From contig JAKMFG010000224.1 of NCBI GenBank assembly GCA_022425565.1, positions 1-12,548 on the forward strand: a stretch of DNA of 12,548 nucleotides. Direction: 5' to 3'. A program made the position numbers and the translations under genes. The stretch comes from Alphaproteobacteria bacterium. GTDB lineage: Bacteria > Pseudomonadota > Alphaproteobacteria > Puniceispirillales > Puniceispirillaceae. The notes below the pieces were generated by a model. That model worked only from the letters and a program-made list of their open reading frames with translations. It did no database searches and was not told the origin of the DNA. This document shows positions 6,509 to 10,737 of the stretch, in pieces (position 1 is the first letter of the stretch; each line of letters starts with the position of its first letter).

Positions 6509-7297
6509 ATGAACAGAATTCCGGAAAGCGCCCGCACCATGCCCGCCTTCGACAGCGGTGACGAGGATATCGATTTCGGATTCCGAACCGTGCGGCGCGG
6601 CGACAAGTCGGGGCTTGTGCGCGATGTGTTTGATTCGGTGGCATCGCGCTACGACCTGATGAATGATCTGATGAGCGGCGGCATCCACCGGCTGTGGAAG
6701 ACGGCGATGATCGACTGGATGGCGCCGCAGCCCCATCAGACTCTGGTCGACCTGGCCGGCGGCACCGGCGATATAAGCCTTCGTTTCCTGCAGGCAGGCG
6801 GCGGCCGGGCAGTGATTACCGATATCAACGAGGCAATGCTGTCCGCCGGTCGCCAGCGCAAGGAATTCAACAGCCTCGGCGGACGGGTCAGCTGGTGCGT
6901 CGGCAATGCCGAGACGCTGCCTTTTACCTCGGCCAGCGCTGACCGGATCACCATCGCCTTCGGACTGCGTAATGTCACAGACCGCGAGGCGGCGATCGCC
7001 GAGGCGCATCGCGTTCTGAAGCCCGGCGGACGGTTTCTGTGCCTTGAATTCTCGCAGGTGAACAGCGCTGCCTTGGCACGCGCCTACGATGCCTGGTCCT
7101 TTCATGTGCTGCCACGGCTTGGACAGATGGTAGCCGGTGATGCCGACAGCTATCGCTATCTGGTGGAATCGATCCGCACATTCCCGACACCCGAGGTTCT
7201 GGCCGATATGTTTGCCGGTGCAGGCTTTGCGCAGGTGCGGGTGCGCCGCCTGTCCGCGGGCATTGCCTGCATCCATTCGGGATGGAAGCTCGACTGA
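6509..7297 (+). CDS. ubiE: Ubiquinone/menaquinone biosynthesis C-methyltransferase UbiE
   Basis: UbiE is a class I SAM-dependent methyltransferase that performs the C-methylation step in ubiquinone (and, where present, menaquinone) synthesis. The 262-aa protein has the family signature YDLMNDLMSGGIHRLWK (48-64), SAM-binding motif I VDLAGGTGDIS (80-90), the motif around GNAETLPF (132-139), and the second signature RVLKPGGRFLCLEFS (168-182). Two starts are possible: the ATG at 6509, or an ATG at 6539 that would trim ten residues. Neither has a strong Shine-Dalgarno. The upstream ATG is kept because the frame is clean, but the shorter form is equally compatible with the family. The stop overlaps the ubiB start as TGATG, so the two are translationally coupled. 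The right-hand plus-strand cluster begins here. Confidence 0.95.
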   Translation: MNRIPESARTMPAFDSGDEDIDFGFRTVRRGDKSGLVRDVFDSVASRYDLMNDLMSGGIHRLWKTAMIDWMAPQPHQTLVDLAGGTGDISLRFLQAGGGRAVITDINEAMLSAGRQRKEFNSLGGRVSWCVGNAETLPFTSASADRITIAFGLRNVTDREAAIAEAHRVLKPGGRFLCLEFSQVNSAALARAYDAWSFHVLPRLGQMVAGDADSYRYLVESIRTFPTPEVLADMFAGAGFAQVRVRRLSAGIACIHSGWKLD

Positions 7298-8811
7298 TGC
7301 GTGTCTCGGCCTGGCAAATGACACTTGCCATGCTCCGGCTGCCGGTGATCGCCTGGCATCTCGGGCGGGCCGGCGCGCTTGGCCATATCGCAAAGATCAC
7401 GCTTCTGCCGGGCTGGATGCGCCATCTGTGCGGCAGCCTCGACAGGCTGGTGCGTTCAGGCAATGCGCGGCGTGATGCCGGCGGCGCGCTCGCCGAGGCA
7501 CTGATTCGCCTTGGGCCGGGATTTATCAAGTTCGGTCAGGCGCTGTCGACACGGGCCGACCTTATCGGCCCGGAAATGGGACATGCGCTGAGTCTTCTGC
7601 AAGACCGTCTCCCCGCTTTTCCGGGCGCGCTGGCGCGCCGCCGCATCGAGGCGGAAGCCGGCATGCCGGTATCCGATCTCTTCCGCCGCTTCGATGACGA
7701 GGCCGTGGCAGCTGCATCGATCGCCCAGGTTCACGACGCCGAGCTTGCCGACGGGCGCCGCGTCGCGGTGAAACTGCTGCGGCCGGGAATCCACCGCCGC
7801 ATGCAGTCCGACACAACCCTGTTCTATTCGCTGGCCAGCCTGCTGGAATGGATGGCGCCCAACCTGCGGCGGCTGAAACTTGTCACCGCAGTCGACCAGT
7901 TTACGCAGATCTCCGCCATGGAGCTCGATTTGCGGCTCGAAGCGGCGGCCGCCGGCAAGTTGGCAGAGAACATGGCTGACGATGCCGGCATCACCGTGCC
8001 GTGGGTTGATCTCGAGCACACCACCTCTGGCATGCTCGTCATCGAGTGGGTCGACGGAATCAGCATTGATGATGTCGAGGCGCTGACCGCCGCCGGACAT
8101 GATATCGGCAAGATCACCGAGGCGGCCGCACGGACCTTTTTCAATCAGGTCTTCCGCGACGGTTTCTTCCATGCCGACATGCATCCGGGGAATATTTTCG
8201 TCGCAGCCGACGGCACTCTGGTTCCCATTGATTTCGGCATTATGGGTCATCTCGATTTCGGCGAAAGGCTGTTTCTGGCCCGTCTGCTGACGGCGATGCT
8301 CGACCGCGACTATGAGGCGGTGGCCAAGCTCCATGCCGATGCCGGCATGCTTGGCGACCATGTCCCACTGGCACAGTTTGCACAGTCGATCCGCGCCGTC
8401 GCCGATCCGGTTATGGGCAAGGCACTTGGCGACGTATCGCTTGGAACGGTGCTTGGCCAGGTCCTGCAGCTTTCAACACGGTTCGAGATCACCGTCCAGC
8501 CGCAATACAATCTTTTGCAGAAGACCATGATGATGGCCGAAGGTGTGGCGCGGCAGCTGAACCCGCAGGCGGATATGTGGACCCTGGCGCGGCCACTGGC
8601 CAGCGACTGGATGCGCGACCATCTCAATTTTGCGCGCCGCGCCGAGACACTTGTCGAGGATCTATTGATGCTGGCCACACGACTGCCACGAATTCTCGAT
8701 GCGCTGGAAGAGCGGCGCAACGAGGAGGCGCCACAACAGGCGCGGCAGGGCGGGGCACTGGCCATTTCACTGCTGGCACTTGGACTTGCCCTTCTGGCCC
8801 TGTTTATCTAG
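7297..8811 (+). CDS. ubiB: UbiB-family atypical kinase/ATPase for ubiquinone biosynthesis
   Basis: UbiB (COQ8/ADCK family) is a membrane-anchored protein-kinase-like ATPase required for ubiquinone biosynthesis, thought to help extract or organise lipid intermediates for the Ubi enzymes. Diagnostic motifs in the 504-aa form are the KxGQ region GPGFIKFGQALSTRADL (74-89), the alanine-rich nucleotide loop AAASIAQVH (138-146), the ATP-binding Lys in VAVKLLRPG (Lys159), the ExD motif ELD (209-211), HADMHPGN (292-299) and the metal-binding IDFG (311-314). The last ~20 residues (AISLLALGLALLALFI) are a membrane helix. The chosen ATG at 7297 overlaps the ubiE stop and follows GGAAG at nine bases; an ATG at 7282 inside ubiE would add five residues. 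Confidence 0.95.
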   Translation: MRVSAWQMTLAMLRLPVIAWHLGRAGALGHIAKITLLPGWMRHLCGSLDRLVRSGNARRDAGGALAEALIRLGPGFIKFGQALSTRADLIGPEMGHALSLLQDRLPAFPGALARRRIEAEAGMPVSDLFRRFDDEAVAAASIAQVHDAELADGRRVAVKLLRPGIHRRMQSDTTLFYSLASLLEWMAPNLRRLKLVTAVDQFTQISAMELDLRLEAAAAGKLAENMADDAGITVPWVDLEHTTSGMLVIEWVDGISIDDVEALTAAGHDIGKITEAAARTFFNQVFRDGFFHADMHPGNIFVAADGTLVPIDFGIMGHLDFGERLFLARLLTAMLDRDYEAVAKLHADAGMLGDHVPLAQFAQSIRAVADPVMGKALGDVSLGTVLGQVLQLSTRFEITVQPQYNLLQKTMMMAEGVARQLNPQADMWTLARPLASDWMRDHLNFARRAETLVEDLLMLATRLPRILDALEERRNEEAPQQARQGGALAISLLALGLALLALFI

Positions 8812-8857
8812 ACTTAATTTCAAATAAATTCACGAATGTTCAAGGAATAAGATTTCT
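8812..8857 (+). promoter_or_regulatory. AT-rich leader before coaBC
   Basis: This 46-nt gap is clearly AT-richer than the genes on either side, and that composition continues into the first codons of coaBC. It contains AAGGA 11 nt before the ATG as the likely ribosome binding site. A weak promoter candidate, TTGCCC, 17 nt, TAGACT, straddles the ubiB end. Short direct repeats ATTTCT occur at 8852-8857 and 8864-8869. The gap interrupts the otherwise overlapping cluster, so a separate promoter or an operator for coaBC is possible but not shown. Confidence 0.3.
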
Positions 8858-10282
8858 ATGAATATTTCTGATCTTTCGGCAATCATTACCGCGCTTGGTG
8901 GGCGGCAGGCGCTGCAGGAGCTTCTTGGCGTCGGGCCAAGCGCCGTCAGCAACTATCTGGCAAAGGGAGCGCTGCCGCAGCGGGCACACGGCCCTGTTTG
9001 CGAGGCCCTTCGTGCACGCGGCTATCAGATTGATCCGGCAAGTCTTGCAATCACGGGCGAGCGCGCCATTGCAAACCTGTCCGGCGCACTATCCGGTCAG
9101 AAACGGGTGCTTCTTTTGGTCGGTGGCGGCATCGCCGCCTACAAGGCGCTGGAGGTTGCGCGGCGGCTTCAGGACCATAATGTCGGCGTGACGGGGGTCA
9201 TGACCCGGTCCGCCTGCGAATTCATCACACCGCTGAGCCTTTCGGCACTCACCGGCGAGAAGGTCTATACCGAGCTGTTCTCGCTGACCGACGAGGCCGA
9301 GATGGGCCATATCAGACTTGCCCGCGAGGCGGATCTCGTGCTGGTCGTGCCGGCAACCGCGAACCTGATCGCGCGCGCCGCCAATGGGCTTGCCGATGAC
9401 CTGGCGACGACCATCCTGCTGGCGACCACCTCGCCGGTGATCATGGCGCCGGCGATGAATCACGCAATGTGGGGGCATCCGGCGACACAGGAAAATCTCG
9501 CACGGCTCAGGGCCCGCGGGGTTGCGACGGCAGGGCCTGCCGACGGCAATATGGCCTGCGGCGAGGAGGGCACCGGCAGACTTGCCGAGGTGCCGGACAT
9601 TGTCGAGGCGGCGCTTCGCACACTGAATATCGCGCCGGGTCCGCTGTCCGGTCGTCACGCGCTGGTCACATCCGGTCCCACGGTCGAGCCGATCGATCCG
9701 GTGCGTTTCATTGCCAACAGGTCATCCGGCAAGCAGGGGCATGCCATCGCCGCCGAGCTGGCAAGCCGCGGCGCACGCGTAACCCTTGTCAGCGGACCGG
9801 TCACCCTGCCGCCACCGCCAACAGTCGAACTTGTCGAAGTCGAAACGGCGCGGCAGATGATGGAGGCCTGCGAAGCAGCCCTGCCGGCCGAGATCGCCGT
9901 CTGCGCCGCCGCCGTCGCCGACTGGCATGTGAAGGGTGCCGGCAACGCAAAGCTGAAGAAACAGGACGGGGCGCCGCCACCTATCGAGCTGGCGGAAAAT
10001 CCCGACATCCTCAGGCGGCTCTCGTCTCATGATGCGCGGCCCGATCTTGTTGTCGGCTTTGCTGCGGAAACCGACAATCTTCGCGAAAATGCCACCGCCA
10101 AACTGGCGCGCAAGGGATGCGACTGGATCGTTGCCAATGATGTTGGTGGTGGCAGCGTGTTCGGCAGCGACAGCAACAGCGCCATGCTGCTGACCGGAAA
10201 CGAGATCGAGGAATGGCCACAGATGCGAAAAGCGGAGCTTGCGAAGCGGCTTGTCGACAGGATCGGGGAGTATTTTGAATGA
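8858..10282 (+). CDS. coaBC: CoaBC (phosphopantothenoylcysteine decarboxylase / phosphopantothenate-cysteine ligase) with N-terminal helix-turn-helix extension
   Basis: This bifunctional enzyme makes 4'-phosphopantetheine for coenzyme A: CoaB ligates cysteine to phosphopantothenate using CTP, and FMN-dependent CoaC decarboxylates the product. CoaC features are GGGIAAYK (89-96), the catalytic His in MGHIRLA (His151), PAMNHAM (Asn201) and [10 protein letters not shown] (Cys234). CoaB features are [11 protein letters not shown] (284-294), AAAVADW (350-356) and KLKK (365-368). The protein is 474 aa; E. coli CoaBC has about 406. The extra ~80 N-terminal residues read as a Cro/YdaS-like helix-turn-helix: [20 protein letters not shown] (9-28), then a recognition-helix-like [12 protein letters not shown] (29-40). 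The extension is in frame, has AAGGA upstream, and there is no ATG or GTG near the normal CoaBC start. The stop overlaps dut as ATGA. The enzyme call is firm; DNA binding is inferred. Confidence 0.95.
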
Positions 10283-10737
10283 GCGCGCATGACGGGCCGG
10301 AAATCCGGATACAGAAACTGCCCCATTTTGACGGACTGTCGCTTCCCTCATATGCAACGGCAGGCGCCGCCGGCATGGATGTGGAGGCGGCCGTCGAAGC
10401 CGATACGCTGCTCGCGCCGGGCCGGCGTGCGGCTGTTCCGACCGGCCTCGCCATGGCCATTCCGGCGGGGTTCGAGATACAGGTGCGGCCCCGTTCCGGC
10501 CTTGCCCTGAAACATGGGGTGACCGTGGCGAACACACCCGGCACCATCGACAGCGATTATCGCGGCGAAGTCAAAATCATGCTGATCAATCTTGGCGAAG
10601 ATGATTTCATCATCACGCGGGGCATGCGCATCGCACAGCTGGTCGTCGCCCCGGTCAGTCTTGCCAGACTGGCGATCGCCGATACGCTTGAGACCACGGA
10701 CCGCGGCAGTGGCGGTTTCGGATCTACCGGAGTCTAG
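10279..10737 (+). CDS. dut: dUTP diphosphatase (dUTPase)
   Basis: The trimeric dUTPase hydrolyses dUTP to dUMP and pyrophosphate, keeping uracil out of DNA and feeding thymidylate synthesis. All five family motifs are present in the 152-aa protein: [10 protein letters not shown] (motif I, catalytic-metal Asp), [13 protein letters not shown] (II), [16 protein letters not shown] (III, with the uracil-contacting loop and catalytic Asp), [10 protein letters not shown] (IV) and the flexible C-terminal arm [10 protein letters not shown] (V). GGGGAG lies eight bases before the ATG, which overlaps the coaBC stop by 4 nt. Pairing of coaBC with dut is also seen in E. coli. It sits four nucleotides ahead of the moeB-type gene. 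Confidence 0.97.

Follow-up and report, generated by a model that had tools for sequence, protein, structure and literature searches.

The gene at positions 8858..10282 of the window, by which we mean the whole 12,548-bp stretch analyzed, encodes CoaBC, a bifunctional enzyme of coenzyme A (CoA) biosynthesis, and raises the question of what a helix-turn-helix (HTH) domain does at the N-terminus of such an enzyme. The original prediction, made from the sequence of this stretch, held that the extension appears to be translated, that it has the layout of a Cro/YdaS-like HTH, and that it may bind the AT-rich leader of its own gene. We followed up these proposals by profile searches, codon-level comparisons, and scans of the genomes of the order, class, and phylum to which the window belongs.

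An HTH domain in front of a complete CoaBC

The gene starts with an ATG and encodes 474 aa followed by a stop codon; all features described here lie on the forward strand. Behind some 80 extra residues, the complete CoaC–CoaB announced by the original prediction is indeed present: residues 81–469 match the full-length CoaBC equivalog TIGR00521 (E = 1.8e-128, 429 bits for a cut-off of 219.7), with the CoaC phosphopantothenoylcysteine decarboxylase domain at 9101..9622 (residues 82–255; PF02441, Flavoprotein, E = 3.5e-32) and the CoaB phosphopantothenate-cysteine ligase domain at 9644..10189 (residues 263–444; PF04127, DFP, E = 1.8e-67). The motifs GHI, PAMNxxMW, ACGE, and KLKK, which we take to be catalytic, are all found in the translation. 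Directly upstream, separated by a 46-bp gap, lies a gene of the ABC1 family (7282..8811; PF03109, E = 9.9e-74) that, from this family, we presume to be ubiB. Downstream, the dUTPase gene dut (10279..10737; PF00692, E = 2.7e-31) overlaps the end of coaBC and is probably part of the same transcript.

The HTH domain occupies positions 8876..9031 (residues 7–58) and matches the carph-isopro profile NF046037 over positions 2–53 of its 54 (E = 2.6e-7), with a score of 30.7 bits for a curated cut-off of 38 bits. The Pfam families YdaS (E = 0.0022) and P22_Cro (E = 0.0093) give weaker, sub-threshold matches. The same three profiles were compared with the CoaBC proteins of the order, using an alignment of 56 of the 57 fused starts (L012 was omitted). 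At E values up to 1, NF046037 matches all 56, including the window's, with a best value of 2.1e-12, YdaS matches 53, and P22_Cro 50. Searched against solved structures, the window sequence alone matches a Cro protein weakly (PDB 3bd1, E = 0.027), and a joint profile of the HTHs of the order matches the same structure over profile positions 1–48 (E = 7.4e-11). This significant match to a solved Cro structure places the domain in the Cro-like superfamily of lambda-repressor-type HTHs. The HTH assigned to the first residues by the original prediction gains independent support from these matches, and an extension unrelated to any HTH family is not what the profiles found. Six residues are invariant among the 56 sequences (G14, G15, L23, S31, N32, and P40). 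The conserved core consists of residues 24–33 together with P40, and the most conserved stretch, GVGPSAxSNY, corresponds to the turn and the putative recognition helix. The linker that follows (9032..9097, residues 59–80) varies in both length and sequence among members of the order.

The extension is translated and is not a chance open frame. In seven pairs of related genes, dN/dS ranges from 0.03 to 0.14 in the HTH and from 0.12 to 0.16 in the enzyme, and it is lower in the HTH in all seven, values that rest on few changes (2–12 nonsynonymous changes in the HTH per pair). The linker has a dN of 0.36–0.78 in five of the pairs, for which the HTH dN is 0.03–0.10; it is 0.03–0.08 in the two closest pairs. 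With its dN/dS far below 1, the HTH is constrained at least as much as the enzyme. In addition, the extension is conserved in four families of the order, and a Shine-Dalgarno-like AAGGA precedes the upstream ATG, as had been noted; it lies at 8842..8846, at a distance of 11 nt. The alternative, an upstream frame open by chance with translation starting near residue 80, would leave few residues before the GGGIAAYK motif. It can draw on start codons that the original prediction had overlooked when it stated that the usual start lacks both ATG and GTG: Val-83 is encoded by GTG and Leu-86 by TTG. Against the selection on the HTH, its conservation in four families, and the position of AAGGA, we give this alternative practically no credence.

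Distribution and origin of the fusion

The fusion is a feature of the entire order Puniceispirillales (SAR116). A CoaBC match was obtained in 111 of its 136 genomes, and the HTH part aligns, at least partly, in 108 of these; in the other three (G131, G135, and G071), contig ends cut coaBC. A second, unfused copy (L080) occurs in G120, a genome with 7% contamination. In a sample of the class, CoaBC was matched in 217 of the 289 genomes. Among the matches listed outside the order, the alignments mostly begin at residues 72–82. Seventeen begin before residue 70; eight of these run through a stop codon, and of the other nine, the four that we read (L038 and L246–L248) lack the HTH.

We also searched from the side of the HTH. 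When the GTDB species genomes were scanned for VGPSA[VLI]SNY, one exact peptide pattern that HTHs of the type found in family f4 of the order would escape, 47 loci were confirmed, and 45 of these are CoaBC fusions. Their record titles include SAR116 cluster and Candidatus Puniceispirillum, others reading only Alphaproteobacteria; 41 of these 45 loci were aligned with the window. At the two remaining loci, the HTH either stands alone as a Cro-like gene (L162) or precedes HisZ (L155). The HTH profile gave 77 matches in 385 genomes of the class, of which 72 fall outside the order, and eight besides the window in 299 genomes of the phylum. No CoaBC frame underlies any of these 72 class matches or eight phylum matches: the best CoaBC score among them is 83, as against at least 742 for the CoaBC frames of the order that were shown. 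The count that the original prediction had called for thus gives an order-wide extension, found nowhere else in the samples searched, and the idea that it is a common feature of the CoaBC family was discarded.

In a tree of the CoaBC core (76 sequences, after exclusion of 12 near-duplicates and of sequences under 330 aa), in which the AT-rich sequences of families f3 and f4 may be misplaced, two changes of the fused label are needed, and all unfused sequences form one clade except L080, which appears as a long-branched second copy. These relationships suggest that the fusion probably arose once, early in Puniceispirillales.

Candidate operators before coaBC and before relatives of the HTH

Reading the gaps between ubiB and coaBC revealed TTCAC and GTGAA half-sites. 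In the window, TTCA occurs there at 8819, 8829, and 8839 (8819..8842); these three half-sites have a 10-bp period and lie 16–39 bp ahead of the ATG, the third with its last base inside AAGGA. This triple, TTCAN6TTCAN6TTCA, is unique in the genome of the window (82.6% complete). In the 12 genomes of its genus, we found 16 triples, 13 of them just before coaBC and at least one such in every genome, for a single occurrence of the reversed control; the 13 include both copies in G009. In many other genera, the gap harbors a palindrome instead. Its strict form, TTCACAN3-4TGTGAA, occurs 40 times in the 136 genomes of the order (reversed control, 10), including 22 sites in coaBC leaders of 20 genomes. 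All 22 belong to families f1–f3, which contain 29 sites (control, 3); none of the 11 sites of f4 lies at coaBC, and four of these are in genomes without a CoaBC match. For the AT-rich genomes of f4, we used the array TTCATN6TTCATN4-6TTCA in 33 of the 58 genomes, leaving aside genus g19 (13 genomes), G071 with its partial gene, and 11 genomes that had no CoaBC match; 13 of its 19 sites are at coaBC leaders, for 15 occurrences of the reversed control. Since the patterns were designed from leaders already read, the species concerned do not provide independent counts, and the leaders of related species are not independent of one another. Occurrences in genomes that had not been read before are those of the palindrome in G095, G096, G098, G099, G133, and G134, and of the f4 array in G054, G060, G063, G066, G075, G077, G078, and G080; for the triple, it is the C2 copy of G009.

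The 100-bp leaders were also compared with shuffled ones. All 12 leaders of the genus contain the triple; the palindrome is found in 15 of 26 leaders from f2 and the rest of f1 and in three of three from f3. In each of these groups, the shuffles reached 0, and none of the 300 attained the number of triples or palindromes observed. The palindrome is absent from the 12 leaders of the genus and from the 16 of f4, five of which contain the f4 array (shuffle maximum, 1). None of 28 leaders of unfused coaBC genes has the palindrome. An excess of single half-sites (TTCAC or GTGAA) is seen in these unfused leaders as well (14, for a shuffle mean of 4.6 and a maximum of 12), so that only the arranged forms separate fused from unfused genes. 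The junction with ubiB does not by itself account for the palindrome: ubiB lies upstream of 55 of the 57 fused loci, the other two having less than 215 bp of sequence there, and of 15 of the 28 unfused loci, all 15 without the palindrome. Of the 289 genomes of the class sample, 33 contain the palindrome, and among the matches for which a coaBC position was listed, only that of G020, a member of the order, is at coaBC. Altogether, these comparisons make it likely that the ubiB–coaBC gap holds an operator.

Not all leaders conform. We saw no clear operator in those of the f4 genus g19 (L069, L070, L071, L082, and L083). In this genus, the distance between ubiB and coaBC is −2 to 15 bp, and the HTH is still kept; a TTGAAATATTTCAA-like palindrome was noticed by eye inside the end of ubiB.

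Of the 40 strict palindromes, 18 are located away from known coaBC starts, five of them in genomes that yielded no coaBC (G049, G090, G091, G093, and G104). Among the 11 that we read, three are intergenic in f3, four lie in long frames (L108, L109, L113, and L116), and four do not (L107, L110, L114, and L115). The three f3 sites (L090, L105, and L106, each at 1501–1515), which are three of the seven f1–f3 sites away from coaBC leaders and come from three different genomes, are second copies of the palindrome, between genes that by eye resemble ShlB and haemagglutinin genes, and this secretion-type locus is a possible second target. In G011, a relative from the genus of the window, a strict palindrome (L110:305–320) precedes by about 160 bp an unrelated gene, whose frame starts at 481; it may be a target or a chance occurrence. 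With the second f3 copies and 15 further sites away from coaBC, other targets are possible. A broad regulon was also considered, but the palindromes read away from coaBC, several of them inside long frames, do not establish one.

Relatives of the HTH outside CoaBC are in several cases preceded by sites of the same type. TTCA-N7-TGAA, a pattern that the 15-bp coaBC palindrome TTCA-CAAATTG-TGAA fits, was found 26–28 bp before the start of four of seven stand-alone relatives (L162, L173, L194, and L196, the last by eye) and is missing before L175, L197, and L198. At L162:424–1023, the stand-alone Cro-like gene is back to back with a small gene, HTH-like by eye, with TTCAAGTAACTTGAA between them. 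This gene layout is that of phage repressor regions, and the locus appears to be a phage-type switch, akin in its HTH to the fused domain.

Eight loci of other alphaproteobacterial families (L155, L169–L172, L174, L176, and L177), several of them close relatives, join the HTH to a HisZ-like protein; the HisZ identity was tested with PF13393 in L155, L170, and L172 and assigned by eye in the others. Their 220-bp leaders contain TTCA-N7-TGAA in seven of eight cases, with 12 sites for a shuffle mean of 0.08 and a maximum of 2, and palindromes such as TTCATATAATATGAA. At three other loci (L178, L179, and L180), the fusion partner of the HTH is a dehydrogenase, for which ADH_N and ADH_zinc_N matches were shown in L178 and which we take to be crotonyl-CoA carboxylase/reductase-like. 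By eye, their leaders share GTCAA-N13-TTGAC, about 50–75 bp before the assumed start. Finally, in many Alphaproteobacteria, the HTH heads membrane-type proteins (L181–L193), with a Mitofilin match in L191.

Probable autoregulation, its rivals, and known systems

We consider it probable that HTH-CoaBC binds its own leader by means of a captured phage-type HTH and, most likely, represses its own gene. Following the probable single fusion of an HTH of the carph-isopro, YdaS, and P22-Cro kind to CoaBC, the domain would read TTCA half-sites in the short ubiB–coaBC gap, arranged in many genera as a 15- to 16-bp palindrome, TTCAC(N5-6)GTGAA, and in that of the window as a direct triple with a 10-bp phase. 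Bound HTH-CoaBC would repress the transcription of coaBC, and of dut behind it, so that the enzyme level would be held by negative feedback. If the SAR116 enzyme resembles the mycobacterial one, several HTH heads of the same oligomer, on their flexible linkers, might hold the phased half-sites together, and CoA or intermediates of the pathway might tune the binding. We infer the physical binding, the preference for repression over activation, the use of the array by several heads, and the tuning by metabolites. The binding to the AT-rich leader that the original prediction had suggested is favored by leader sites that are largely specific to coaBC when arranged and of the same type as those before stand-alone relatives. 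What speaks against this reading is that the site of the window is a direct triple and no palindrome, that many fused leaders are without the strict forms, that single half-sites are enriched before unfused genes as well, that palindromes also occur elsewhere, that the HTH scores below the NF046037 cut-off, and that a pattern scan of positions 8560–8920 found no sigma-70-like promoter for the site to block.

The HTH might instead bind the leader and activate coaBC, or act as a switch with different states. Direct repeats with a 10-bp phase would also suit the recruitment of polymerase, and the scan located no promoter. However, the sites are found after the ubiB stop and before the coaBC start, and those of the window touch the ribosome-binding site, a location commoner for repressor sites; likewise, four stand-alone relatives carry the site 26–28 bp from their start. 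Activation is thus an unlikely, though not negligible, option. We find it distinctly less probable still that another transcription factor reads the TTCA sites while the CoaBC HTH acts otherwise or binds elsewhere. Comparative data do not tell which protein reads a site, and the second f3 site at a secretion-type locus and the enrichment of single half-sites before unfused coaBC genes would both suit a different one. Yet the palindrome accompanies the fusion and is absent from all 28 unfused leaders, and stand-alone relatives of this very HTH have the same type of site at their own genes. Moreover, the fused CoaBC is the only HTH-profile match at E values up to 1e-4 in five genomes of the order (G000, G013, G016, G020, and G023, one of them 83% complete), which argues against a second copy of the HTH as the reader. 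A loss of DNA binding, the fold being kept for assembly or for binding a partner, is conceivable since HTH domains can act as protein–protein modules. We judge it very improbable, as the turn and the putative recognition helix, GVGPSAxSNY, are the most conserved part of the domain and matching sites are present at coaBC.

A marine order thus appears to wire CoaBC directly to its own gene via a defined candidate operator. In the open-access literature (titles and abstract openings), we found no report of an HTH-CoaBC with an operator. Titles and abstract openings on carph-isopro and on HisZ with an HTH likewise reported no such fusion regulator, and the HTH mentioned in PMC11487621 concerns CymR.

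The window protein has the same two catalytic domains, in the same order, as the CoaBC (Dfp) proteins of Escherichia coli and Mycobacterium smegmatis (PDB 6TGV). Unlike it, unfused alphaproteobacterial CoaBC (L031–L057) start near the CoaC domain and have no HTH, as is also the case in E. coli. Mycobacterial CoaBC is described as a dodecamer with CoaC trimers at its vertices, in which CoaB is inhibited by CoA thioesters; according to the same source, the regulation of CoaBC was previously unknown in any organism (PMC7794376). Enzymes that regulate their own pathway through an HTH are a kind already known, as in the group II biotin protein ligases exemplified by BirA, where a cofactor enzyme carries an N-terminal HTH that regulates pathway genes (PMC4016012). 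HTH-CoaBC is analogous to BirA but unrelated to it in enzyme and cofactor, and its apparent target is its own gene. As in enzyme repressors of the BirA and PutA type, an operator-like site is recognizable, by sequence, at the gene presumed to be regulated.

Among Cro-like phage repressors (carph-isopro, YdaS, and P22-Cro; PDB 3bd1), the resemblance lies in the HTH and in the TTCA-N7-TGAA common to four stand-alone relatives, whereas the HTH of CoaBC sits on an enzyme and its sites sometimes have a 16-bp spacing or consist of direct repeats in place of the palindrome. A parallel is offered by the HTH-HisZ fusions, which share the HTH profile and TTCA-N7-TGAA sites (seven of eight leaders) and differ by a partner from the histidine pathway, by their occurrence in other lineages, and by sites 21–204 bp before the start. 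With sites of one kind before them, the two sorts of fusion suggest that evolution can turn phage repressors into self-regulating enzymes by a path open to repeated use. A broader scenario, which we advance tentatively and doubt slightly more than we trust, is that phage Cro/CI-type HTHs were repeatedly captured onto alphaproteobacterial enzymes (CoaBC in SAR116; in other lineages, HisZ and a dehydrogenase of crotonyl-CoA-reductase-like type), whose own genes kept operators of the TTCA type or similar ones, giving self-regulating enzymes. On this scenario, no enzyme of CoA biosynthesis before HTH-CoaBC would have been known to contain a transcriptional regulator; in CoaBC, the heads of the oligomer would read a phased array, and CoA or its intermediates would tune the repression.
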